In this document: positions 9,374 through 46,652 of the stretch, in pieces | Layout: every line of letters begins with the position of its first letter | Numbering within the stretch: the stretch's first letter is position 1 | Assembly (NCBI GenBank): GCA_902632605.1 | Contig: CACPDB010000006.1 | Location: 1 to 64,000 of the forward strand | DNA: 64,000 nucleotides | Source of the DNA: an uncultured SAR86 cluster bacterium | Lineage (GTDB): Bacteria; Pseudomonadota; Gammaproteobacteria; Magnimaribacterales; AG-339-G14 | Reading direction: 5' to 3' | Notes under the pieces: generated by a model | What the model was told of the DNA's origin: nothing | Seen by the model: only the letters and a program-made list of their open reading frames with translations | Databases searched by the model: none | Translations under genes and position numbers: made by a program

Positions 9374-10972
9374 ATGAACAATTCTTCTATTCCAGAAGTT
9401 GGTGGGCGTAGTGCAAAATTTGCACTAATCTTACTTGTCATTGTCTATGTCTTTAATTTTATAGACAGACAGATCTTAACCATTCTCGCCGAGGATTTAA
9501 AAGCAGACTTAAATATCTCTGACAGCGACATTGGTTTCTTGTACGGAACAGCTTTCGCAGTCTTTTATTCAGTCGTTGGTATTCCAATGGGAAAACTAGC
9601 TGATACCTGGAATAGAAAAAATTTAATAAGCTTGGGTTTAGCTTTTTGGAGTTTGATGACGTTTTTATCAGGAACTGCTAAATCCTTTTTATCATTATCA
9701 ATTTATAGATTTGGTGTTGGAATTGGAGAATCCAGCGCATCTCCAGCTTCTTACTCGCTTTTATCAGACTATTTCTCTCCAAAAGTAAGAGCAACGGTAC
9801 TTTCAATTTATGCTAGCGGACTCTATATAGGTTCGGGAATAGGTATTTTCATTGGAGGACTTATAGTAGATAACTGGAATGAAGCTTTTCCAACAATATC
9901 TGAAGCTCCTTTTGGATTAAAGGGATGGCAAGTAGCTTTTATGGCAGTTGGTCTACCAGGTATTTTATTGGCTTTAATAACATGGCAGATCAAAGAACCG
10001 CCTAGAGGTCTAAGTGAAGGACTTACAGAAACAAAAAAAGAAAACCCCCTCAAAGCAGCATTTGGAGAGCTAGTAGGGTTAACTCCTTTTGGACTACTTC
10101 AAGCTGAAAATACTCAAAAAGAATTGATAAGAAATTTTGCTTTACTAATTTTTGTTGTGTCTGGAGCTTATTGGTTAATTCAAACTACCGGAGACTACTT
10201 ACAATGGATTGCCTTTGGAATAGGTTTTTATATTGTAAGTAATTGGATTCAGGGACTTAGAATAAGAGATAAAGTAGCTTTTGAATTGATGTTCAAAAGC
10301 AAGGCCTTATTGCTTGGTCTTTTAGCTTTTCCTTTCATTACTTTCGTTACCTATGCATTAGGTGCCTTTGGACCTGCTTTTTACATAAGAAATTTTGGTA
10401 TGTCAGCTTCTGAGGTTGGAGTTATATATGGTTTGATTACTGCTTTTGGATCCATGGTAGGAGTAATTGGGGGCGGTTTCATTGGAGACAAACTTAGGGA
10501 AAAGTACACAAATGGAAAGCTTTATTTGATAATGGCATCTGCCCTATTAACTGCAATAACAGGTTTGGGATTTTTGTATTCTCCTGAAGCCAATATCTCT
10601 TTTGCATGGAAATTTTTCTATCATGTTTCTTCAACAGCTTGGTTAGGTTGTGCAGCATCAACAGTAACCGAACTTGTTTTACCTAGGTTAAGAGCTGTAG
10701 CAAGTGCATTTTTTATCTTAATGCTAAGCATGGGAGGATTAGCTCTTGGACCATATTTAACAGGTATGTTGAGTGATATTTATACAATACAGTTTCTTAC
10801 TGAAGGAATGAATAAGTCAATGGCTGAAGCTATTGGGTTAAAACAAGCTCTTGCTCAATCTTTGATAGTTTTATTAGTGCCAATGGTTTTATTAGGTTTT
10901 GCTTGTAGATTTTTAAAAAAAGATGAAGATAATCTTTTTGCAAAAGCTAGAAATCTAGGCGAAGCTGTTTAA
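9374..10972 (+). CDS. MFS transporter, spinster-like
   Basis: A 532-aa integral membrane permease, longer than a standard 400-430-aa MFS protein. The N-terminal segment VFNFIDRQILTILAEDLK and the loop GKLADTWNRKN are typical of spinster-type MFS members. About twelve or more hydrophobic segments can be picked out; the extra length lies in the middle (about 225-310), between the two six-helix halves, where two added hydrophobic stretches are visible. The substrate is unknown; its position after the MaoC pair suggests an organic acid or lipid-like compound. Its end overlaps convergent folK by 18 bases. Confidence 0.82.
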   Translation: MNNSSIPEVGGRSAKFALILLVIVYVFNFIDRQILTILAEDLKADLNISDSDIGFLYGTAFAVFYSVVGIPMGKLADTWNRKNLISLGLAFWSLMTFLSGTAKSFLSLSIYRFGVGIGESSASPASYSLLSDYFSPKVRATVLSIYASGLYIGSGIGIFIGGLIVDNWNEAFPTISEAPFGLKGWQVAFMAVGLPGILLALITWQIKEPPRGLSEGLTETKKENPLKAAFGELVGLTPFGLLQAENTQKELIRNFALLIFVVSGAYWLIQTTGDYLQWIAFGIGFYIVSNWIQGLRIRDKVAFELMFKSKALLLGLLAFPFITFVTYALGAFGPAFYIRNFGMSASEVGVIYGLITAFGSMVGVIGGGFIGDKLREKYTNGKLYLIMASALLTAITGLGFLYSPEANISFAWKFFYHVSSTAWLGCAASTVTELVLPRLRAVASAFFILMLSMGGLALGPYLTGMLSDIYTIQFLTEGMNKSMAEAIGLKQALAQSLIVLLVPMVLLGFACRFLKKDEDNLFAKARNLGEAV

Positions 10973-26868: not shown

Positions 26869-27400
26869 TTCAGCAGAATCAAAAAAATCAAAAATTTTAG
26901 ATTCTTATTTAGAAAGAAAAGAACTTATCAATTTAGAATCTCCTAACTTAAATACCTCTCCCTCAAAAGCTATCTCTCAAATAGAGAAAATAATTAAAGA
27001 AAGTTCTAATAGGGTTTGTGTAGTAGGAAGTTCTCTCGGAGGATTATATGCAACTTTTGTGGCAGATAAATTCGATCTTAGATCAGTGACAATAAATCCA
27101 GTAGTGACAAATCATATCTCCGAAATGAAGGACCTAGTAGGTCCTCATAAAAACTTTCATACGGATGAAGAATATGAGTTTTCAATGAAGGATTACTTAG
27201 ATTTACAAAAATTAGGTCTAAAAGAACTTAAAGAACCCTTAAATCACTTATGTCTAATAAAGATGTCAGATGAAGTTTTAGATCACAATAAAACGTTAGA
27301 ATATTTTTCTAAATCTTATGTGCTTAGCGAAAAAGGGGGGAATCATAGTTATGATGACTTTTTTGAAAAAATTCCTTTGATTTTAGACTATATGTACTAA
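26825..27400 (+). CDS. yqiA: YqiA-like alpha/beta-hydrolase esterase
   Basis: A 191-aa member of the UPF0227/YqiA esterase family. Motifs: IIYLHGFNSSAESKK at the N terminus, nucleophile elbow GSSLGGLYAT (Ser), then SDEVLDHNKT supplying the acid and GGNHSYDDF with the catalytic His. E. coli YqiA hydrolyses short acyl esters in vitro; the natural substrate is unknown. The track start is the ATG at 26825, but a TTG at 26837 with GGAAG just before it would give the more family-like N terminus MKIIYLHGF. An NtrC-like palindrome overlaps the stop codon. Confidence 0.85.
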   Translation: MEVQLKIIYLHGFNSSAESKKSKILDSYLERKELINLESPNLNTSPSKAISQIEKIIKESSNRVCVVGSSLGGLYATFVADKFDLRSVTINPVVTNHISEMKDLVGPHKNFHTDEEYEFSMKDYLDLQKLGLKELKEPLNHLCLIKMSDEVLDHNKTLEYFSKSYVLSEKGGNHSYDDFFEKIPLILDYMY

Positions 27401-27409
27401 AATAGTGCA
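27393..27409. promoter_or_regulatory. Candidate NtrC-binding palindrome upstream of the GSII gene
   Basis: TGTACTAAAATAGTGCA is a 17-bp palindrome with one mismatch that resembles the enterobacterial NtrC site (TGCAC-N7-GTGCA). It overlaps the yqiA stop and lies about 75 bases upstream of the predicted transcription start of the glutamine synthetase gene. Further half-sites follow (GCACTA at 27416 and TGCACTATTTTATAGCA at 27437-27453). A nearly identical sequence occurs at 45487-45503. Binding by NtrC is inferred from location and consensus recalled from E. coli. Confidence 0.6.
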
Positions 27410-27448
27410 AATTAAGCACTAAATAGAGACAAAAAATGCACTATTTTA

Positions 27449-27469
27449 TAGCAATTACTTTGCTAATAT
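27449..27469 (+). promoter_or_regulatory. Candidate glutamine synthetase promoter (sigma-54-like, alternative extended -10)
   Basis: TAGCAATTACTTTGCT (27449-27464) fits the sigma-54 pattern TGGCACG-N4-TTGCW in spacing and in the -12 element, but the -24 GG is AG. The same bases also contain an extended -10, TGCTAATAT (27461-27469), usable by a sigma-70-type holoenzyme. Either way transcription would start near 27475, just before RBS GGAG (27492) and the ATG at 27502. This also shows that the track's ORF start at 27436 lies upstream of the promoter core. Confidence 0.5.
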
Positions 27470-27501: not shown

Positions 27502-28485
27502 ATGACAGACTTTAAAACGTACGAATATATTTGGCTAGATGGATACACTCCTGAAGCAAATATGCGAAGTAAAGTAAAAGCTACTGATGAAGATACAGCT
27601 CCAGACTGGTCTTTTGATGGTTCATCAACACAACAAGCAGATGGAGGCAGTTCAGATTGTCTTTTGTTACCTGTACAAACTTATGAAAACCCCAATGGGC
27701 ATGACTTAGTAATGACTCAGGTGCAGGCAGCAGACCATACAACACACCCTTCTAATTTTAGAGCCGCTGCTGCGGAAGTAGTTACAGATGAATGGTGGTT
27801 TGGATTTGAACAAGAATTTTTCTTTACCGATCCAAAAACTGGTGAACCTCTTGGTTGGGAAGACGGCACTCCAGAAAGAGAACAAGGAGAATATTATTGT
27901 GGTGTTGGTGCAAGTAACGTTGTGGGTAGAGAAATTTCTGATGCTCATTTGCATGCCTGTCTTGATCTTGGAATCACACTGACAGGAACAAATGCTGAAG
28001 TTGCTTTAGGACAATGGGAATACCAATGTTTTGGAAAAGGAATCAAAGCTGCTGATGACTTGTGGGTAAGCAGATATATGCTTTTCAAAATAGCTGAAGA
28101 ATTTGGCGTTGGGGTAAATATTCATCCTAAACCAAAAACAGGAGACTGGAACGGTTCTGGTATGCACACTAACTTTTCTAATGAAGAAATGAGATCAAAA
28201 GGTTCAAAAGAGCTTTTTGAAGGAATGTGTGAAAAACTTGGAAAAGTTCATGATGATGGAATTGCTTCTTATGGTTCTGACAATGACATGAGACTAACAG
28301 GACTGCATGAAACTCAAAAAATCACGGAATTCTCCTACGGAGTAAGTGATAGAGGAGCCAGTATTAGGATACCAGTCTATACAGTTGAACATGATTGGAA
28401 TGGATATTTAGAAGACAGAAGACCTGCTTCTAATGCAGATCCTTACAAAATTTTAGCGCACATTGTAGGTACGCTGACTAAATAA
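27502..28485 (+). CDS. glnII: Glutamine synthetase, type II (GSII, eukaryotic-type)
   Basis: ATP-dependent synthesis of glutamine from glutamate and ammonia. Motifs are those of GSII rather than the large GSI (GlnA): WSFDGSSTQQADG, GFEQEFFF, DWNGSGMHTNFS, SDRGASIRIP and YLEDRRPASNADPY. With the ATG at 27502, preceded by GGAG at good spacing, the protein is 327 aa, normal for GSII; the track's extra 22 residues would run through the promoter. No adenylylation-site region of GSI type is present. The gene occupies the glnA position in front of ntrB-ntrC, with a long hairpin between it and ntrB. Confidence 0.95.
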   Translation: MTDFKTYEYIWLDGYTPEANMRSKVKATDEDTAPDWSFDGSSTQQADGGSSDCLLLPVQTYENPNGHDLVMTQVQAADHTTHPSNFRAAAAEVVTDEWWFGFEQEFFFTDPKTGEPLGWEDGTPEREQGEYYCGVGASNVVGREISDAHLHACLDLGITLTGTNAEVALGQWEYQCFGKGIKAADDLWVSRYMLFKIAEEFGVGVNIHPKPKTGDWNGSGMHTNFSNEEMRSKGSKELFEGMCEKLGKVHDDGIASYGSDNDMRLTGLHETQKITEFSYGVSDRGASIRIPVYTVEHDWNGYLEDRRPASNADPYKILAHIVGTLTK

Positions 28486-28506
28486 ATCTCAAGGTGTAAA
28501 GTGTTT

Positions 28507-28560
28507 AAGACCATAGGATTGACCCAATCGGAAAAAATCTTTTGGTTAATCCTAGGTCTT
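28507..28560 (+). terminator. Long stem-loop between glnII and ntrB (possible attenuator)
   Basis: The arms AAGACC-A-TAGGATT and AATCCTAGGTCTT pair perfectly apart from one bulged A, and pairing probably extends inward with CCAA/TTGG, giving a roughly 54-base hairpin. There is no T-run directly after it (AACATTCAGCTTTTT follows), so it is not a textbook terminator. In E. coli a partial terminator separates glnA from glnL, and this structure could likewise lower ntrBC expression relative to the synthetase or protect its mRNA. Confidence 0.5.
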
Positions 28561-28603
28561 AACATTCAGCTTTTTAAATTAAAAATAAAAGTAATTTTCA
28601 AAG

Positions 28604-29683
28604 ATGATATTTTTTGAAAATGTTTTAGACGAATTATCTGCGAAAATTCTAGTTACAGATGACAATTTAGATGTTTTATTTTTAAATAAATCTGCTGAAG
28701 ACTATCTATGTACTTCTCTTGACGAATCTAAAGGAAAAAATATAGATGAAGTTTTCAAAGAGAAAACCAGTAATGAGCTAGAACTTCAAGAAATTCTTGA
28801 AAAGAAAAAATCTTTTAAACGTCACATAACTACAATTTTTCTTAAAGATAATCTTCAAAAGAAAACATCTTTTAAAGCTTCTTATTTTTCCAATGATGAA
28901 TTTAAAGGCATTATTTTTGAATTCTTTGATAATCAAAATCCCGAATCTATTTCAGATAGAATGAAGAAAAGAACGGCGGCATCGATTACTCAGGCTTTTT
29001 CTAGAGGGCTGGCGCATGAAATTAAAAATCCTTTAAGCGGTATTAGAGGCGCCGCACAGTTACTTTCCCAAAAAATAGAAGATCCCAAAAAAAAAGAATT
29101 CGCAAATATTATTCTTAAGGAGTCGGACAGACTCGTAAATATTGTTAATAAAGTTTCAGGCAACAGTTTCAAACTGGAACAGAATTTTCAAAATATTCAT
29201 ACCATTCTCGAAAAGATTCCTGCTTTCATAAAAAATATTGATAATCAAAAAGTCCAAGTTCTTAAGGATTATGATCCTAGCTTGCCCTTAATTGAAATAG
29301 ATAATTCGTTGATTTCTCAGGTATTTTTTAACCTTGCAACTAATTCAATTGAAGCTTTTAAAAAGAACAATAAGTCAGGGAAAATTACAATAAGAAGTAG
29401 AGTTGCTTACGAGGTTTTTATAAATAATAAAAAATATAATACGGCTTGCCAGATAGATTTCATTGATAATGGGCCGGGGATTCCAGACGATATTATTGAC
29501 TCTGTTTTTTTTCCATTGGTTTCATCAAAAGAAATAGCATCTGGTCTAGGTTTATCTATTGTTAAAGGAATTATCAATCAACATGGGGGTTCGATAGATT
29601 GTTCTAGTGACGATACTGGAACAACTTTCACGATTCTTCTGCCCATCACAGAAGTTAACTTTGAAAAAACAAAAGCAAACTGA
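28604..29683 (+). CDS. glnL: Nitrogen-regulation sensor histidine kinase NtrB
   Basis: Cytosolic kinase/phosphatase acting on NtrC in response to PII. The 359-aa protein has an N-terminal PAS domain (VTDDNLDVLFLNKSAEDYL), then the HisKA H-box GLAHEIKNPLSG with the phosphoaccepting His, the N-box NLATNSIEAFKK, DNGPGIPDDI (G1) and GLGLSIVKGI (G2). No membrane segments are present, as expected for NtrB. ntrC follows after 7 bases. All kinase residues look intact, in contrast to the altered residues in the NtrC partner. Confidence 0.95.
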   Translation: MIFFENVLDELSAKILVTDDNLDVLFLNKSAEDYLCTSLDESKGKNIDEVFKEKTSNELELQEILEKKKSFKRHITTIFLKDNLQKKTSFKASYFSNDEFKGIIFEFFDNQNPESISDRMKKRTAASITQAFSRGLAHEIKNPLSGIRGAAQLLSQKIEDPKKKEFANIILKESDRLVNIVNKVSGNSFKLEQNFQNIHTILEKIPAFIKNIDNQKVQVLKDYDPSLPLIEIDNSLISQVFFNLATNSIEAFKKNNKSGKITIRSRVAYEVFINNKKYNTACQIDFIDNGPGIPDDIIDSVFFPLVSSKEIASGLGLSIVKGIINQHGGSIDCSSDDTGTTFTILLPITEVNFEKTKAN

Positions 29684-29690
29684 GGAATAA

Positions 29691-31088
29691 ATGGCTAAAA
29701 ATAAAAAAATCTGGATTGCTGATGACGATGAATCAATCAGATTTGTTTTAAAGTCAGGTTTATCAGAAGCAGGTTTTAATGTTTCTACCTTTGAAGATGG
29801 AAACGAAGTAGTAAATAAACTTGATATTGAATCACCTCACCTTTTACTTACTGACCTTAAAATGCCTGGAAGAGATGGTATGGATTTATTGGAAACTTTT
29901 CGTAATGAGCATCAAAAGATTCCAATTATTATTATGACGGCACATTCTGATTTAGAAACCACTGTAGAGGCTTTTGAAGCAGGTGCTTGGGACTACATTG
30001 CGAAACCTTTTGATTTAAATACCGCAATAGAAAAAATAAACAAAGCAATTTCTGAAAAGAAAAATGTACAAAAGAAACTTTCAGAGAAAGAAGAAATCAG
30101 TCTCAGAGCAGGAAAAATTCTTGGAAAGTCTCCAGCAATGCAAGATTTGTTTAATTCTATAGGTAAATTGTCACACTCGGACAGCACAGTTTTATTGGTT
30201 GGTGAGTCAGGTACAGGAAAAGAGTTAGTGTCTCAAGCAATCTTCGAACACTCAGACAGGTCCAATAAAAAGTTAATTTCGCTTAATGTAGCGGATATAC
30301 CTGTCGAGCTATTAGAGTCTGAATTATTTGGTCACGAAAAAGGCGCTTTCAAAGGCGCTGGTGATCAAAGAATAGGTAGATTTGAGCAAGCTGATAAAGG
30401 AACCTTGTTTTTAGATGAAGTTGGAGATATGCCTCTAGAAACTCAGACTAGATTAATAAGAGTTTTATCGAGTGGCGAATTTTATAGAATTGGAGGAAAT
30501 AGTCCTATTAAAGTGGATGTTAGAATTATTGCAGCTACAAACCAAAACCTCGAGGAAAAAGTAAAGAATGGGTCTTATAGAGAAGATCTCTATCATAGAC
30601 TCAATGTCATAAAAATAAATTTACCTCCTTTAAGAGATAGAAAAGAAGATATCCTTTTATTAACCAGTTACTTTTTAAAGAAGTTCTCTGAAGAAGCAAA
30701 AATTAAAGTTAAAGTATTAAGTAAAGAGGTCGAAGAACTTTTCGAAAATTTAATCTGGCCTGGAAATGTCTTGCAATTACAAAATGTTTGCCAGTCTTTA
30801 ACTTTATTATCCTCAGGTCAAGAGATTTCTATGAGCGATATCCCCAAAGACTTGTCTTTACAAAGAAAGGGTCCAGAAATGAGCTGGAGTGATATGCTCG
30901 AATCCTGGGCTTCAAAAAAATTACTTAAAGGAGATGACCATATTCTAAATAGTGCTACTCCTATATTTGAAGGCACAATGATAAAAGCTGCTCTAAAGGC
31001 AACAAAAGGGAAAAAAAGTGAAGCGGCTAAACTCCTTGGTTGGGGAAGAAATACTCTAGCTAGAAAGATAACTGAACTCGACCTTTAA
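29691..31088 (+). CDS. glnG: Nitrogen-regulation response regulator NtrC with altered GAFTGA loop
   Basis: A 465-aa receiver-AAA+-Fis regulator. Receiver: phosphoacceptor Asp at about residue 55 (LLLTDLKMPG). AAA+: Walker A GESGTGKE (171-178), Walker B LFLDEVGDMP, Arg-containing TQTRLIRVL and VDVRIIAATNQ. C-terminal Fis-type HTH: GKKSEAAKLLGWGRNTLARK. Two unusual residues: the sigma-54-contact loop reads GAFKGA (Lys at about 221 instead of Thr), and sensor II reads WPGNVLQLQN (Leu at about 361 instead of Arg). Walker residues are intact, so ATP binding looks possible, but remodelling of sigma-54 polymerase may be impaired or changed. Preceded by GAGGAATAA. Confidence 0.93.
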   Translation: MAKNKKIWIADDDESIRFVLKSGLSEAGFNVSTFEDGNEVVNKLDIESPHLLLTDLKMPGRDGMDLLETFRNEHQKIPIIIMTAHSDLETTVEAFEAGAWDYIAKPFDLNTAIEKINKAISEKKNVQKKLSEKEEISLRAGKILGKSPAMQDLFNSIGKLSHSDSTVLLVGESGTGKELVSQAIFEHSDRSNKKLISLNVADIPVELLESELFGHEKGAFKGAGDQRIGRFEQADKGTLFLDEVGDMPLETQTRLIRVLSSGEFYRIGGNSPIKVDVRIIAATNQNLEEKVKNGSYREDLYHRLNVIKINLPPLRDRKEDILLLTSYFLKKFSEEAKIKVKVLSKEVEELFENLIWPGNVLQLQNVCQSLTLLSSGQEISMSDIPKDLSLQRKGPEMSWSDMLESWASKKLLKGDDHILNSATPIFEGTMIKAALKATKGKKSEAAKLLGWGRNTLARKITELDL

Positions 31089-42678: not shown

Positions 42679-45408
42679 CTAAAATTGATGAATTACTTCA
42701 ATACCTGCCCTCATTCCAGGATAGTATTTCAATCTAGCTCCTCCACCTTGGCTTTGAGGATAAATCAAGGTAAACGCAATATCATCTTTCTCGTCTAGAC
42801 AGTTGGTACAGAAACCTCTCAAAGAAGTACCGTTGTTAAAGTCTATCGTGGTAGAAAAATTCAATCTTTCTATCTTTTCTTCAAAAGTTAAACCTACGAC
42901 TCTTTCATCTCCAAGAGCTACATCGGCTTTGTAAGAATAAGAGGCGCTGATTATTACATCTCCTATGTTAGTAGGTTGAACATGATCTACTGAGAAAATC
43001 ATTGACTGTTCAGGAGTCCATGGCATGCCTCCGCCTGCACGTTGATAAGAACCAACTGCAGTTGCACTACAATCTGTAAATGTAGATCCATGAATTTCTC
43101 TCCAGTCTCTAGAATCGTCACAATAATTATCATACTTTGCATCTATGTAGGCATAGTTGAAATTCAAAGTTGTACCTTCAGATACTCGAGCAACTAGATT
43201 CAAATCCAAACCATTAATGGTTGATGCACCCGCATTTCTTGTTAACCCAAGAGGTAGACCTTGAACTACAGCCACCTTAATTAGTTGCTTATTAGTCCAA
43301 TCATAAGTGTAAGCTACAGCGCTTAAATTTAAGGAGTTATTTAAGAAAGCTCCTTTGTAGCCAACTTCATACATTTCAAGTTCTTCAGGATCAAAACCTT
43401 GATCAACAAGTTCTTTAAAGTAGGTTGCAAATTGCCATCCTCCACTTTTGAAACCGGTAGCATAGGTAAACCACGTCATCCCGTTATCATCTTTATAATC
43501 GATGGTTAATTTAGGATCTGTAGAAGACCAAGAGGCTTGATTATTTGCTGTGAAAGTTTGAACTGCTGAAGCAATTGGTGCAATACCTACACCTTGTATA
43601 TCCACTACCGAAGCAAATGCGGCTCTATAGTCTGCATCGCCAGCTACACTGTTGGCATCAATTGCATTAAGAGTTGCTATTGAAGGCGCAAAAGCGCCTA
43701 ATGCAGCAAATGCAGCAATAGTGCCATCAACAACTGCTTTTTGACCTGCAAAAGTAGCCGCCGTGTAATGTGTAGCACCATTAGCAGGATTAAATCCAGC
43801 ACCTGTCATATTATCAGGAATAATCAATGACCCAGGAACACCCACAGCATTTGAAGATGTGATGTAAGTCATTCCTTTTGTATCGTATGTATATCTTGCT
43901 CCTAAAGTAATGTTCCATCTATCAGCCATTGGAATAGTTACCTGACCAAATGCAGCAGTAGATTTATTATTAATTCTTAAATCCAACCCAGCAGTTCCTC
44001 GGTTTTCATATGCAGATGCGGTCGCTATACCCCAATCTTCATACAATAAGGATTTTGATGCCGAAGGTCCTGTGTAAGTACCACCTTGCAAAGCGGCAAG
44101 ACTTCCTACTCCATTTGCCGTAAAGATTCCTCCATCAGCAACTGCAATCGCAGCGGCTCCTTGTTGGTTGAAAGCACCGTGACGACCTGTTTTGAAAGTA
44201 TCAAGTCTATCTCCATAGTCTAAAAACTGATAAAGACCTGCAACCCATTGAATTTCGTCTTCAGGTTTTGAATTCCATCTCAATTCAAAATTTGATTGAT
44301 TTGTTTTTTGTGCACTTTCTTGAGAAAAAGACTCAGCCGCTGTTGCATCAAAATCTCTTCTTTCATCAGACTGATTTTGATTGGTAGACAATAAAATAGT
44401 TAAATCATAATCGTCTCTAAAAAATTTAACTTTTGCCGCTAGCAAGGCATCATCTCTTCTGTCCATTGAGTCAACGTCCTCAGAAGCTGAAAACTTGTCT
44501 GCCCTTATAGCAGCAAGACCTGCTGCATCTGAGCCGAAAGCTTTTGATAAATCAGTTTGAAATATATCTAGGCCGCCCGCTTGAGCTGCCACACTTTGTT
44601 GGATAAGGTTGGTCTGGGCAGTTGTACATTCTGTTGTGCCTCTTGTACAAACTACCGCTTCAGATACTAATGCGTCTGTTTTAGAGACAGCATGATCGGC
44701 AGTTAGGGACCATTCATAATCCTGACCTTCGCCAAATAAAGAAAATCTAAAACTTTCATTTGAAGGACCATCGTCACCGCCAAAAGAACTAGTATTTTTA
44801 TGAACGCCTTCTATATCTTGGTAGCCGATCACCATTCTTCCGTAAAGGTCTTGACCCAACTCTCCAGACAACATGTAGCTAAAATTTTGATAGCCAGAAT
44901 CTCCAGCACCGACTTTTATTTTTTGTTCCGTTTCGCTAGTTGGTTTTTTATAGAAAATACTTACAGCTCCTCCAAGAGCATTTCTTCCGTATAACGTTCC
45001 TTGAGGTCCTTTTAAGACTTCAATACGCTCAACATCCACAAGTCCTGACATAGAAGACTGAACTCTTGGCATATAGATTTCATCTACAAACAATGCATTA
45101 GAACTTTCCGAACCAATGTCAAATTTTGTTGAACCAATTCCTCTTAACCAAAATTGGGCTCGTCCTGCATTTTCACCTGATAACATCATATCTGGGACAA
45201 GTCTCATCAAGTCGTTAGTATCTCTAACACCTGCACCCTCAAGCATATCGCCTGAAAAAGCTTGCAGTGCAGACGGGACGTCTAAAAGGTTTTGTTCTCT
45301 TTTTTGAGAAGTAACTACCATTTCTTCAAGTGCAACTTGAGCAAGAGAAATAGTAGAGGTAATAAATAGTGATAGTGTCACTATATATTTAAGAAAATTT
45401 TTGAACAT
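42679..45408 (-). CDS. TonB-dependent outer-membrane receptor
   Basis: A 909-aa receptor: signal peptide (to about residue 23, SLAQ), TonB box EEMVVTSQK, plug domain (NLLDVPSALQAFSGDML, RGIGSTKFD, VLKGPQGTLYGRNALGG) and 22-strand-type barrel ending in the C-terminal Phe (VIHQF). The barrel has a long Ala/Gly-rich insertion at about 395-640. No SusD or siderophore genes adjoin it; neighbours are catabolic oxidoreductases, so uptake of an organic, perhaps lipophilic, compound is possible but unproven. Expression may be controlled by two palindromes upstream (see 45434 and 45488). RBS GGGGG sits 4 bases before the ATG. Confidence 0.93.
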   Translation of the reverse strand: MFKNFLKYIVTLSLFITSTISLAQVALEEMVVTSQKREQNLLDVPSALQAFSGDMLEGAGVRDTNDLMRLVPDMMLSGENAGRAQFWLRGIGSTKFDIGSESSNALFVDEIYMPRVQSSMSGLVDVERIEVLKGPQGTLYGRNALGGAVSIFYKKPTSETEQKIKVGAGDSGYQNFSYMLSGELGQDLYGRMVIGYQDIEGVHKNTSSFGGDDGPSNESFRFSLFGEGQDYEWSLTADHAVSKTDALVSEAVVCTRGTTECTTAQTNLIQQSVAAQAGGLDIFQTDLSKAFGSDAAGLAAIRADKFSASEDVDSMDRRDDALLAAKVKFFRDDYDLTILLSTNQNQSDERRDFDATAAESFSQESAQKTNQSNFELRWNSKPEDEIQWVAGLYQFLDYGDRLDTFKTGRHGAFNQQGAAAIAVADGGIFTANGVGSLAALQGGTYTGPSASKSLLYEDWGIATASAYENRGTAGLDLRINNKSTAAFGQVTIPMADRWNITLGARYTYDTKGMTYITSSNAVGVPGSLIIPDNMTGAGFNPANGATHYTAATFAGQKAVVDGTIAAFAALGAFAPSIATLNAIDANSVAGDADYRAAFASVVDIQGVGIAPIASAVQTFTANNQASWSSTDPKLTIDYKDDNGMTWFTYATGFKSGGWQFATYFKELVDQGFDPEELEMYEVGYKGAFLNNSLNLSAVAYTYDWTNKQLIKVAVVQGLPLGLTRNAGASTINGLDLNLVARVSEGTTLNFNYAYIDAKYDNYCDDSRDWREIHGSTFTDCSATAVGSYQRAGGGMPWTPEQSMIFSVDHVQPTNIGDVIISASYSYKADVALGDERVVGLTFEEKIERLNFSTTIDFNNGTSLRGFCTNCLDEKDDIAFTLIYPQSQGGGARLKYYPGMRAGIEVIHQF

Positions 45409-45448: not shown

Positions 45449-45460
45449 TTGATGTTGCGA

Positions 45461-45469
45461 ATTCTATCA
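45461..45469 (-). promoter_or_regulatory. Candidate extended -10 of the TonB receptor
   Basis: On the minus strand TGATAGAAT matches an extended -10 (TGn-TATAAT with one mismatch), giving a start near 45454 and a leader of about 45 bases. No good -35 is visible; instead the NtrC-like palindrome at 45488-45502 is centred near -41, the usual position for an activator that compensates for a weak -35. Confidence 0.4.
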
Positions 45470-45487
45470 AAAAGAAAGACGATTTGT

Positions 45488-45502
45488 GCACTAAAATAGT
45501 GC
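45488..45502. promoter_or_regulatory. NtrC-like palindrome upstream of the TonB receptor
   Basis: GCACTAAAATAGTGC has perfect 6-bp arms and matches the site upstream of glnII at all but one base over this core. It lies in the divergent gap, 80 bases before the receptor ATG and about 100 bases before the alcohol dehydrogenase ATG. No GG-N10-GC sigma-54 element was found on either side, unlike a classical NtrC target. Confidence 0.55.
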
Positions 45503-45605
45503 TAGTTATCATATGAGACTTTAAGTGTCAAAATCCACGAACCTCCTATAAAAGGACTTCCACCAACTAAATAAATATGATTAGATTTTACATCGGAGAA
45601 ATATT

Positions 45606-46652
45606 ATGAAAGCTTATCAAGTAGTTGAAAATGGAAAACCTTTAGAAAAAAAAGAAATAGAGACACCAATACCAACTGGAAAGGAAATTTTACTTAAAAC
45701 AGTTTCTTGTGGAGTTTGTCATTCAGACGTTCACATTCATGATGGCTATTTTGATTTAGGTGCTGACATGAAACTTCCAATGCCGCTTGCTGAACCATTA
45801 ACTATGGGACATGAGATCTTCGGTGAAGTTGTCTCGGTAGGAGATGAAGTGAATTCTGTGAAAGTCGGGGAAAGATATGTTGCTTACCCCTGGATAGGCT
45901 GTGGAGACTGCGAACTCTGTAACACAGATAAAACGCATTATTGTCTTAATAACTCAAATCTTGGAATTAATGTAAGTGGTGGATACGGAGATCATGTTTT
46001 GGTACCGGCAGAAAAATATCTTTTTGATGCAGGCAACACTCCAGATAGCTTAGCAGGTAGCTATGCTTGTAGAGGATTAACTGCATTTAGTGCCTTAAAA
46101 AAAGCTGGTCCTTTTTCTAAAGATAATTCTTTAGTAATTGTAAGTGCAGGTGGATTGGGGCTCTTAGCTTTAAAAATAGCCAGAGCTGCATATGGTATAA
46201 ATCCAATAGTCATTGACATTGATGACGAAAAATTGAAAGTAGCTAAAGATTTAGGTGCATCAGAAGTAATAAATTCTTCCAAAGAAGGGGCCGCCGAAAA
46301 ACTTATGGAAGTTACAAACGGAGGTGCAAACGCAATAGTTGATTTTGTTGGAGCTGAGCAATCTGTAAATCTTGGTTATCAGTGTCTTGCTAAAGGGGGG
46401 ACTATTGTAGTTGTGGGATTATTTGGAGGACAAATAACTATTCCTCTTCCCCTTCTTACTTTAACTGAAAAAAAGATTTTGGGTTCTTATGTAGGAAGTC
46501 TTGGCGAAATGGAGGAATTAATGAAATTAGTAGCAGCTGGAAAAATTGAACCTGTTGAAGTTGAATCTAGAAATGTTTCTGAGGCTAATAAAACACTAGA
46601 AGAAATGAAGAATGGAGAACTTCTAGGGTTAGTTTCATTGACGCACGACTAA
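45606..46652 (+). CDS. Zinc-dependent alcohol dehydrogenase (MDR family)
   Basis: A 348-aa NAD(P)-dependent alcohol dehydrogenase. The catalytic zinc site shows in SCGVCHSDVHIHDG and TMGHEIFGEV, the structural zinc site in GCGDCELCNTDKTHYC, and the coenzyme fold in SAGGLGLLALKIA. It would oxidise a primary or secondary alcohol to aldehyde or ketone. RBS GGAG lies 8 bases before the ATG. The SDR gene follows after 2 bases, so they form one unit, divergent from the TonB receptor; alcohols produced by the P450 are possible substrates, by inference only. Confidence 0.92.
   Translation: MKAYQVVENGKPLEKKEIETPIPTGKEILLKTVSCGVCHSDVHIHDGYFDLGADMKLPMPLAEPLTMGHEIFGEVVSVGDEVNSVKVGERYVAYPWIGCGDCELCNTDKTHYCLNNSNLGINVSGGYGDHVLVPAEKYLFDAGNTPDSLAGSYACRGLTAFSALKKAGPFSKDNSLVIVSAGGLGLLALKIARAAYGINPIVIDIDDEKLKVAKDLGASEVINSSKEGAAEKLMEVTNGGANAIVDFVGAEQSVNLGYQCLAKGGTIVVVGLFGGQITIPLPLLTLTEKKILGSYVGSLGEMEELMKLVAAGKIEPVEVESRNVSEANKTLEEMKNGELLGLVSLTHD

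Follow-up and report, generated by a model that had tools for sequence, protein, structure and literature searches.

Is a TonB-dependent receptor of SAR86 controlled by the nitrogen master regulator NtrC and, if so, through which type of promoter? Since SAR86, a group of marine bacteria with tiny genomes that is abundant in the sea, is hard to culture, its nutrient control is read mainly from genomes. The question is raised by a palindrome found upstream of the receptor gene in a 64-kb window (the whole stretch of DNA analysed) out of a 1.22-Mb draft genome. By far the best explanation, and one that we hold with good confidence, is that NtrC has turned into an activator of sigma-70 promoters and that the receptor belongs to its regulon. 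The features around the palindrome are as follows.

42679-45408, minus strand: TonB-dependent receptor of 909 aa (PF00593, PF07715), with orthologues only in the window's genus
45461-45469, minus strand: extended -10 TGATAGAAT of P2, a predicted NtrC-dependent promoter; the 18-bp gap to the box is invariant
45487-45503, no strand assigned: predicted 17-bp NtrC box TGCACTAAAATAGTGCT, centred at -41 for the receptor promoter P2
45503-45531, minus strand: P1, a putative second, NtrC-independent promoter composed of TTGACA (45531-45526), 17 bp and TG-A-TAACTA (45511-45503)
45606-46652, plus strand: divergent zinc alcohol dehydrogenase; several relatives have an unrelated dehydrogenase in its place, with the box retained

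Sequence identity of the receptor among relatives is mostly 60-76%, far lower than the 83-98% seen for most comparisons of the neighbouring SDR, P450, and DUF3604. The divergent gene encodes a zinc dehydrogenase in some relatives and an iron-type one in others.

The box TGCACTAAAATAGTGCT fits the consensus TGCACCAnnnTGGTGCA published for E. coli NtrC (PMC8743547), with both core halves, GCAnnA and TnnTGC, being present. Its core GCACTAAAATAGTGC (45488-45502) differs by a single base from the glnII-upstream site GTACTAAAATAGTGC (27394-27408), and likewise by one base from the gltB site. The original prediction had claimed this near-identity to the glnII site as well as its improbability by chance, and both claims hold. 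Genome scans, run as pattern searches, yield four matches with at most one mismatch, against about 0.14 expected by chance on both strands per 1.22 Mb (0.008 per 64-kb window) and none for a reversed control. A looser scan at three mismatches gives 29 places versus 9 in the control, the weak ones being left uninterpreted. A terminator reading of the receptor palindrome was rejected, as no T run follows it. The fourth strong match (C1:176944-176960) was first taken for an NtrC box, but is now read as an RNA hairpin because it falls within a glutamine riboswitch (RF01739) here and in two relatives.

A scan for the motif had been set beforehand as a check, and the motif proved not to be widespread. 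The search covered 40 genomes of the family, including 16 of the window's genus, and places were assigned by locus. With at most one mismatch, 15 of these 16 genomes harbor the box, at 41 places in all: glnII (13), the receptor (13), gltB (12), and the glutamine riboswitch hairpin (3). The reversed pattern gives none in this genus. There, the box is almost confined to the receptor and two genes of nitrogen assimilation. G028, the one member of the genus that yielded no receptor, lacks all of these strong boxes and carries the weaker TGTTCTAAAATAGTGCA at its glnII. The gltB box, found in 12 genomes of the genus, is centred at -42 in a receptor-like layout. In the sister genus g3, glnK-amtB is preceded by a conserved -10-like element with a related box at -41, and in the sister genus g4 a -35/-10 pair follows the gltB box, whose centre at -63 is a class I position. 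In the window's genome, the region ahead of glnK-amtB (L006, 8705-8780) was found to contain no full NtrC box and just a pair of TTAGTGCA half sites separated by about 42 bp, a difference from g3.

The geometry of the receptor promoter is equally constrained. When the last base of TGATAGAAT is taken as -7 (the -10 positions being predicted), the centre of the box is computed at -41, the spot that had been claimed relative to an extended -10 on the receptor strand. The predicted start of P2 lies near 45454, and its -35 hexamer is absent, its place being taken by the box. A centre at -41, overlap with the -35 position, and a good predicted -10 together correspond to a class II arrangement. The box is present in 13 of the 14 distinct orthologous receptor loci (receptor identity 60-97%), and in these 13 it always stands 18 bp ahead of TGATA(G/A)AAT, although all 13 come from one genus and, because of this shared ancestry, do not count as independent events. 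At L018/G034 the receptor is kept and the box lost, with TTGACT and TATGAT remaining.

These remnants bear on P1, which by its pattern (TTGACA-N17-TG-N-TA) would be a second functional promoter. An alternative is that NtrC bound to the box mainly represses, blocking P1 and lowering the receptor under nitrogen limitation. The layout offers something to this reading, since in loci that keep the box TTGACA stands 28-31 bp away from it, the P1 -10 abuts the box, and the P1 start would fall inside it. However, the P1 -10 is weak, and an extended -10 that lacks a -35 and keeps a constant 18-bp distance from the box favours activation of P2. A like geometry at gltB (-42) and at g3 glnK (-41), both of which should be switched on when nitrogen is limiting, argues in the same direction, so that we regard repression as unlikely. 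Still less probable, to the point of being a slim chance, is that a regulator other than NtrC occupies the receptor palindrome and that the likeness to glnII reflects convergence. NtrC binding to the box is itself a prediction, but the core is one base away from the glnII and gltB sites and matches the E. coli consensus, the box is restricted genus-wide to nitrogen genes, the receptor, and the riboswitch hairpin, and no strong match of this kind other than NtrC was found in the genome. That the box, lying about 103 bp from the dehydrogenase start in an intergenic region shared by both genes, serves the dehydrogenase can be almost entirely discounted: this distance varies from 102 to 131 bp across loci, the replacement gene in several of them is an iron-type dehydrogenase (named from its sequence), and because the box and the 18-bp gap persist through these changes the receptor is the likely target and the zinc alcohol dehydrogenase probably is not.

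Activation of the receptor by NtrC thus remains the preferred reading, and the locus encoding this regulator is found in the same window, where glnII, a sensor kinase gene, and ntrC are consecutive (27502-31088).

27393-27409, plus strand: distal NtrC box of glnII, TGTACTAAAATAGTGCA, centred at -75
27415-27431, plus strand: middle, imperfect NtrC box of glnII, AGCACTAAATAGAGACA, centred at -53
27437-27453, plus strand: proximal NtrC box of glnII, TGCACTATTTTATAGCA, centred at -31
27461-27469, plus strand: extended -10 TGCTAATAT of glnII, occupying the place of the sigma-54 promoter of family f3
27502-28485, plus strand: glnII glutamine synthetase (PF00120, PF03951), with a conserved start context
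28604-29683, plus strand: ntrB-type sensor kinase (PAS, HisKA, HATPase_c), located beside glnII and ntrC in other families too
29691-31088, plus strand: ntrC, with GAFKGA replacing GAFTGA and with Walker A/B, the arginine finger, and the NtrC HTH kept

The true start of glnII is probably 27502 and not the listed ORF start at 27436, judging from the conservation of the former and its ribosome site; 27436 falls inside the promoter. With the start at 27502, the third box (27437-27453) therefore lies within the promoter. The three boxes are spaced by 22 bp in all four genera examined; none has its centre at -41, and the distal box is out of phase by roughly a quarter turn. Sigma-54 -24/-12 elements at glnII were found in 9 of 11 promoters of family f3, in none of five of family f2, and in none of 28 of the window's family. 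The extended -10 is present in 25 of these 28, and the three g3 promoters carry TGATAATTT.

The assignment of the regulator itself relies on several features. The protein passes the NtrC equivalog model TIGR01818 (599.9 bits, cut-off 558.6) and scores 578.9 with the narrower PRK10923, under its cut-off of 620. It combines a receiver, an AAA+ domain, and a Fis-type HTH, is encoded beside ntrB and a glutamine synthetase gene, and has an HTH resembling the solved NtrC DNA-binding domain 1ntc. No other protein of the window's genome gives a strong match as a sigma-54 activator. As a bEBP, however, the regulator departs from the type in two respects: the GAFTGA loop is changed to GAFKGA, and sigma-54 was not found in the genome. 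Among the genomes compared, which are draft single-cell and metagenome assemblies, searches for rpoN/sigma-54 (PF04552) found none in the window's genome or in 15 congeners, and the sigma-54 core-binding domain (Sigma54_CBD, PF04963) was found in none of the 40 family genomes. GAFKGA is present in every NtrC examined from the window's genus, where Walker A, Walker B, and the arginine finger are intact; the ATP-binding motifs are thus kept, a trait of sigma-54-independent NtrC of the R. capsulatus type. Taken by itself, the T-to-K change carries little weight, since the sigma-54-less genus g2 and most g4 genomes retain GAFTGA (two g4 genomes have GAFAGA); families f2 and f3 have GAFTGA or GSFTGA. 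The strongest protein evidence comes from g3, a genus that lacks the receptor: each of the seven NtrC genes examined there codes for a 256-aa protein made up of a receiver, a short linker, and the HTH, which has cleanly lost the AAA+ domain. The sigma-70-type promoter that had been proposed for the receptor thus finds agreement in the sigma-54 gene not being found, the altered GAFTGA, and the fixed -41/-42 position at extended -10s. On these sequences, the NtrC of SAR86 appears to have abandoned the sigma-54 machinery that this regulator normally requires and to work on normal promoters like any ordinary switch.

A side observation concerns the usual rpoN place in the sigma-54-less g2 and g4. 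After lptB and before mgtE stands an ORF of 78-91 residues consisting only of the RpoN box, the end of PF04552 (L136 2317-2589, L137 2318-2554, L138 2047-2298, L139 2108-2341). Its core RKTI(A/S)KYR is conserved across genera, and the ORF may therefore be functional.

The NtrC tree branches in the order f3, then f2, then g3, then g1, the window's genus, with g2 and g4. The states of the regulator and its promoters can be arranged in a series. In f3, rpoN and the sigma-54 promoters at glnII are both kept. In f2, sigma-54 and GAFTGA are kept, yet two glnII promoters have a box at -40 of an extended -10. The series would thus run from intact sigma-54 in f3 to -40 boxes in f2, followed by loss of sigma-54 in the family, alteration of GAFTGA in the window's genus, and deletion of AAA+ in g3. 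The simplest history is that NtrC shifted to sigma-70 promoters, that sigma-54 was then lost, and that the parts contacting sigma-54 decayed afterwards. We consider it fairly likely that a sigma-54 enhancer-binding protein became a sigma-70 activator stepwise within one order, that the promoter switch preceded sigma-54 loss, and that the TonB receptor was recruited afterwards. Such a series makes it testable how an ATP-driven enhancer-binding protein becomes a recruitment activator and then discards its motor domain.

For the receptor, we infer that NtrC, encoded 14 kb away, binds the box, that it activates rather than represses, and that it depends on phosphorylation. At low glutamine, NtrB would phosphorylate NtrC, and during nitrogen limitation the NtrC-P dimer on the -41 palindrome would recruit sigma-70 RNA polymerase to the -35-less extended -10. 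The same NtrC would drive gltB (box at -42) and glnII (boxes at about -75, -53, and -31), and the receptor, raised alongside glutamine synthetase and glutamate synthase, would bring this very small nitrogen regulon to three members. P1 would probably provide basal expression and be blocked once NtrC is bound.

Two RNA elements were noticed as well. In the gltB leader (L007, about 9540-9660, minus strand), the stretch from the NtrC-box promoter to gltB carries one or two units GGCAU-AUCAC-AUGCC-UUAAAA-GUGA and, after that, CGCAU-UGUCC-AUGCG-UUAAAA-GG(A/G)CA, which are small hairpins. Their loops are complementary to the tail, and loop and tail covary between genera in a tandem pseudoknot-like manner; downstream of the units, a possible hairpin covers the gltB start codon. 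The units, also seen in L064-L071, L073, L074, L034, L036, L037, L039, and L040, occur in 12 g1 and 8 g4 genomes and almost nowhere else in the order. They gave no Rfam match above cut-off and could possibly be an unknown regulatory RNA of glutamate synthase. The glutamine riboswitch (RF01739; L006 6844-6974, minus strand; also in L087 and L088) precedes an ORF of 55 codons with YRG repeats and no Pfam match, and would represent a second layer of nitrogen control in a gammaproteobacterium.

What the receptor transports is a separate matter. Family and PDB searches return just a generic likeness to siderophore, B12, and heme receptors, and no substrate is therefore claimed; the structure model (mean pLDDT 36) is too poor for use. 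Strong expression of SAR86 TonB receptors in the ocean has been reported (PMC4410273; PMC13096325), the particular receptor and the nitrogen state not being given. That the substrate is relevant to nitrogen is a guess. If the proposed control is true, this one receptor could be read in ocean metatranscriptomes as a nitrogen reporter for SAR86 that is defined by sequence, and the compound it takes up would be a candidate organic nitrogen source.

Several known systems can be set beside this one. Escherichia coli NtrC shares its DNA box with SAR86, and the two-promoter layout of glnAp1/glnAp2, with a box beside a sigma-70 promoter, resembles P1/P2 of the receptor. The activated promoter is a sigma-54 promoter in E. 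coli, whereas that of the receptor is of the extended -10 sigma-70 type, sigma-70 being proposed at both P1 and P2. The NtrC sites of Rhodobacter capsulatus are tandem and far upstream, whereas the SAR86 box lies at -41/-42; a further difference is that the SAR86 family studied yielded no sigma-54 gene. Both Rhodobacter and Caulobacter have an NtrC that works independently of sigma-54 (PMC10274813). According to the same paper, R. capsulatus has an NtrC-family protein with reported sigma-70 activation and a deleted GAFTGA loop, whereas SAR86 keeps the loop with one change, GAFKGA (PMC10274813). Caulobacter crescentus NtrC, as presented there, also lacks GAFTGA, is needed for glnBA expression, and acts at sigma-70 promoters, but it differs by an eight-residue loop deletion and by a genome that keeps other GAFTGA regulators and sigma-54-dependent genes; no AAA+-less relatives are described alongside it (PMC10274813). 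In the open full-text literature, no papers were found on SAR86 NtrC or on AAA+ loss in NtrC. The RegA/PrrA/ActR response regulators have a receiver and a Fis-type HTH without AAA+, a make-up equal to that of g3 NtrC. Unlike them, g3 NtrC derives from NtrC by internal deletion, is encoded behind glnII-ntrB, and keeps the NtrC HTH. Judged against the open literature, several points look new: the occurrence in a gammaproteobacterium, the -41 layout, the gradation seen within a single order, an NtrC that lacks AAA+, and the presence of a TonB receptor in the regulon.
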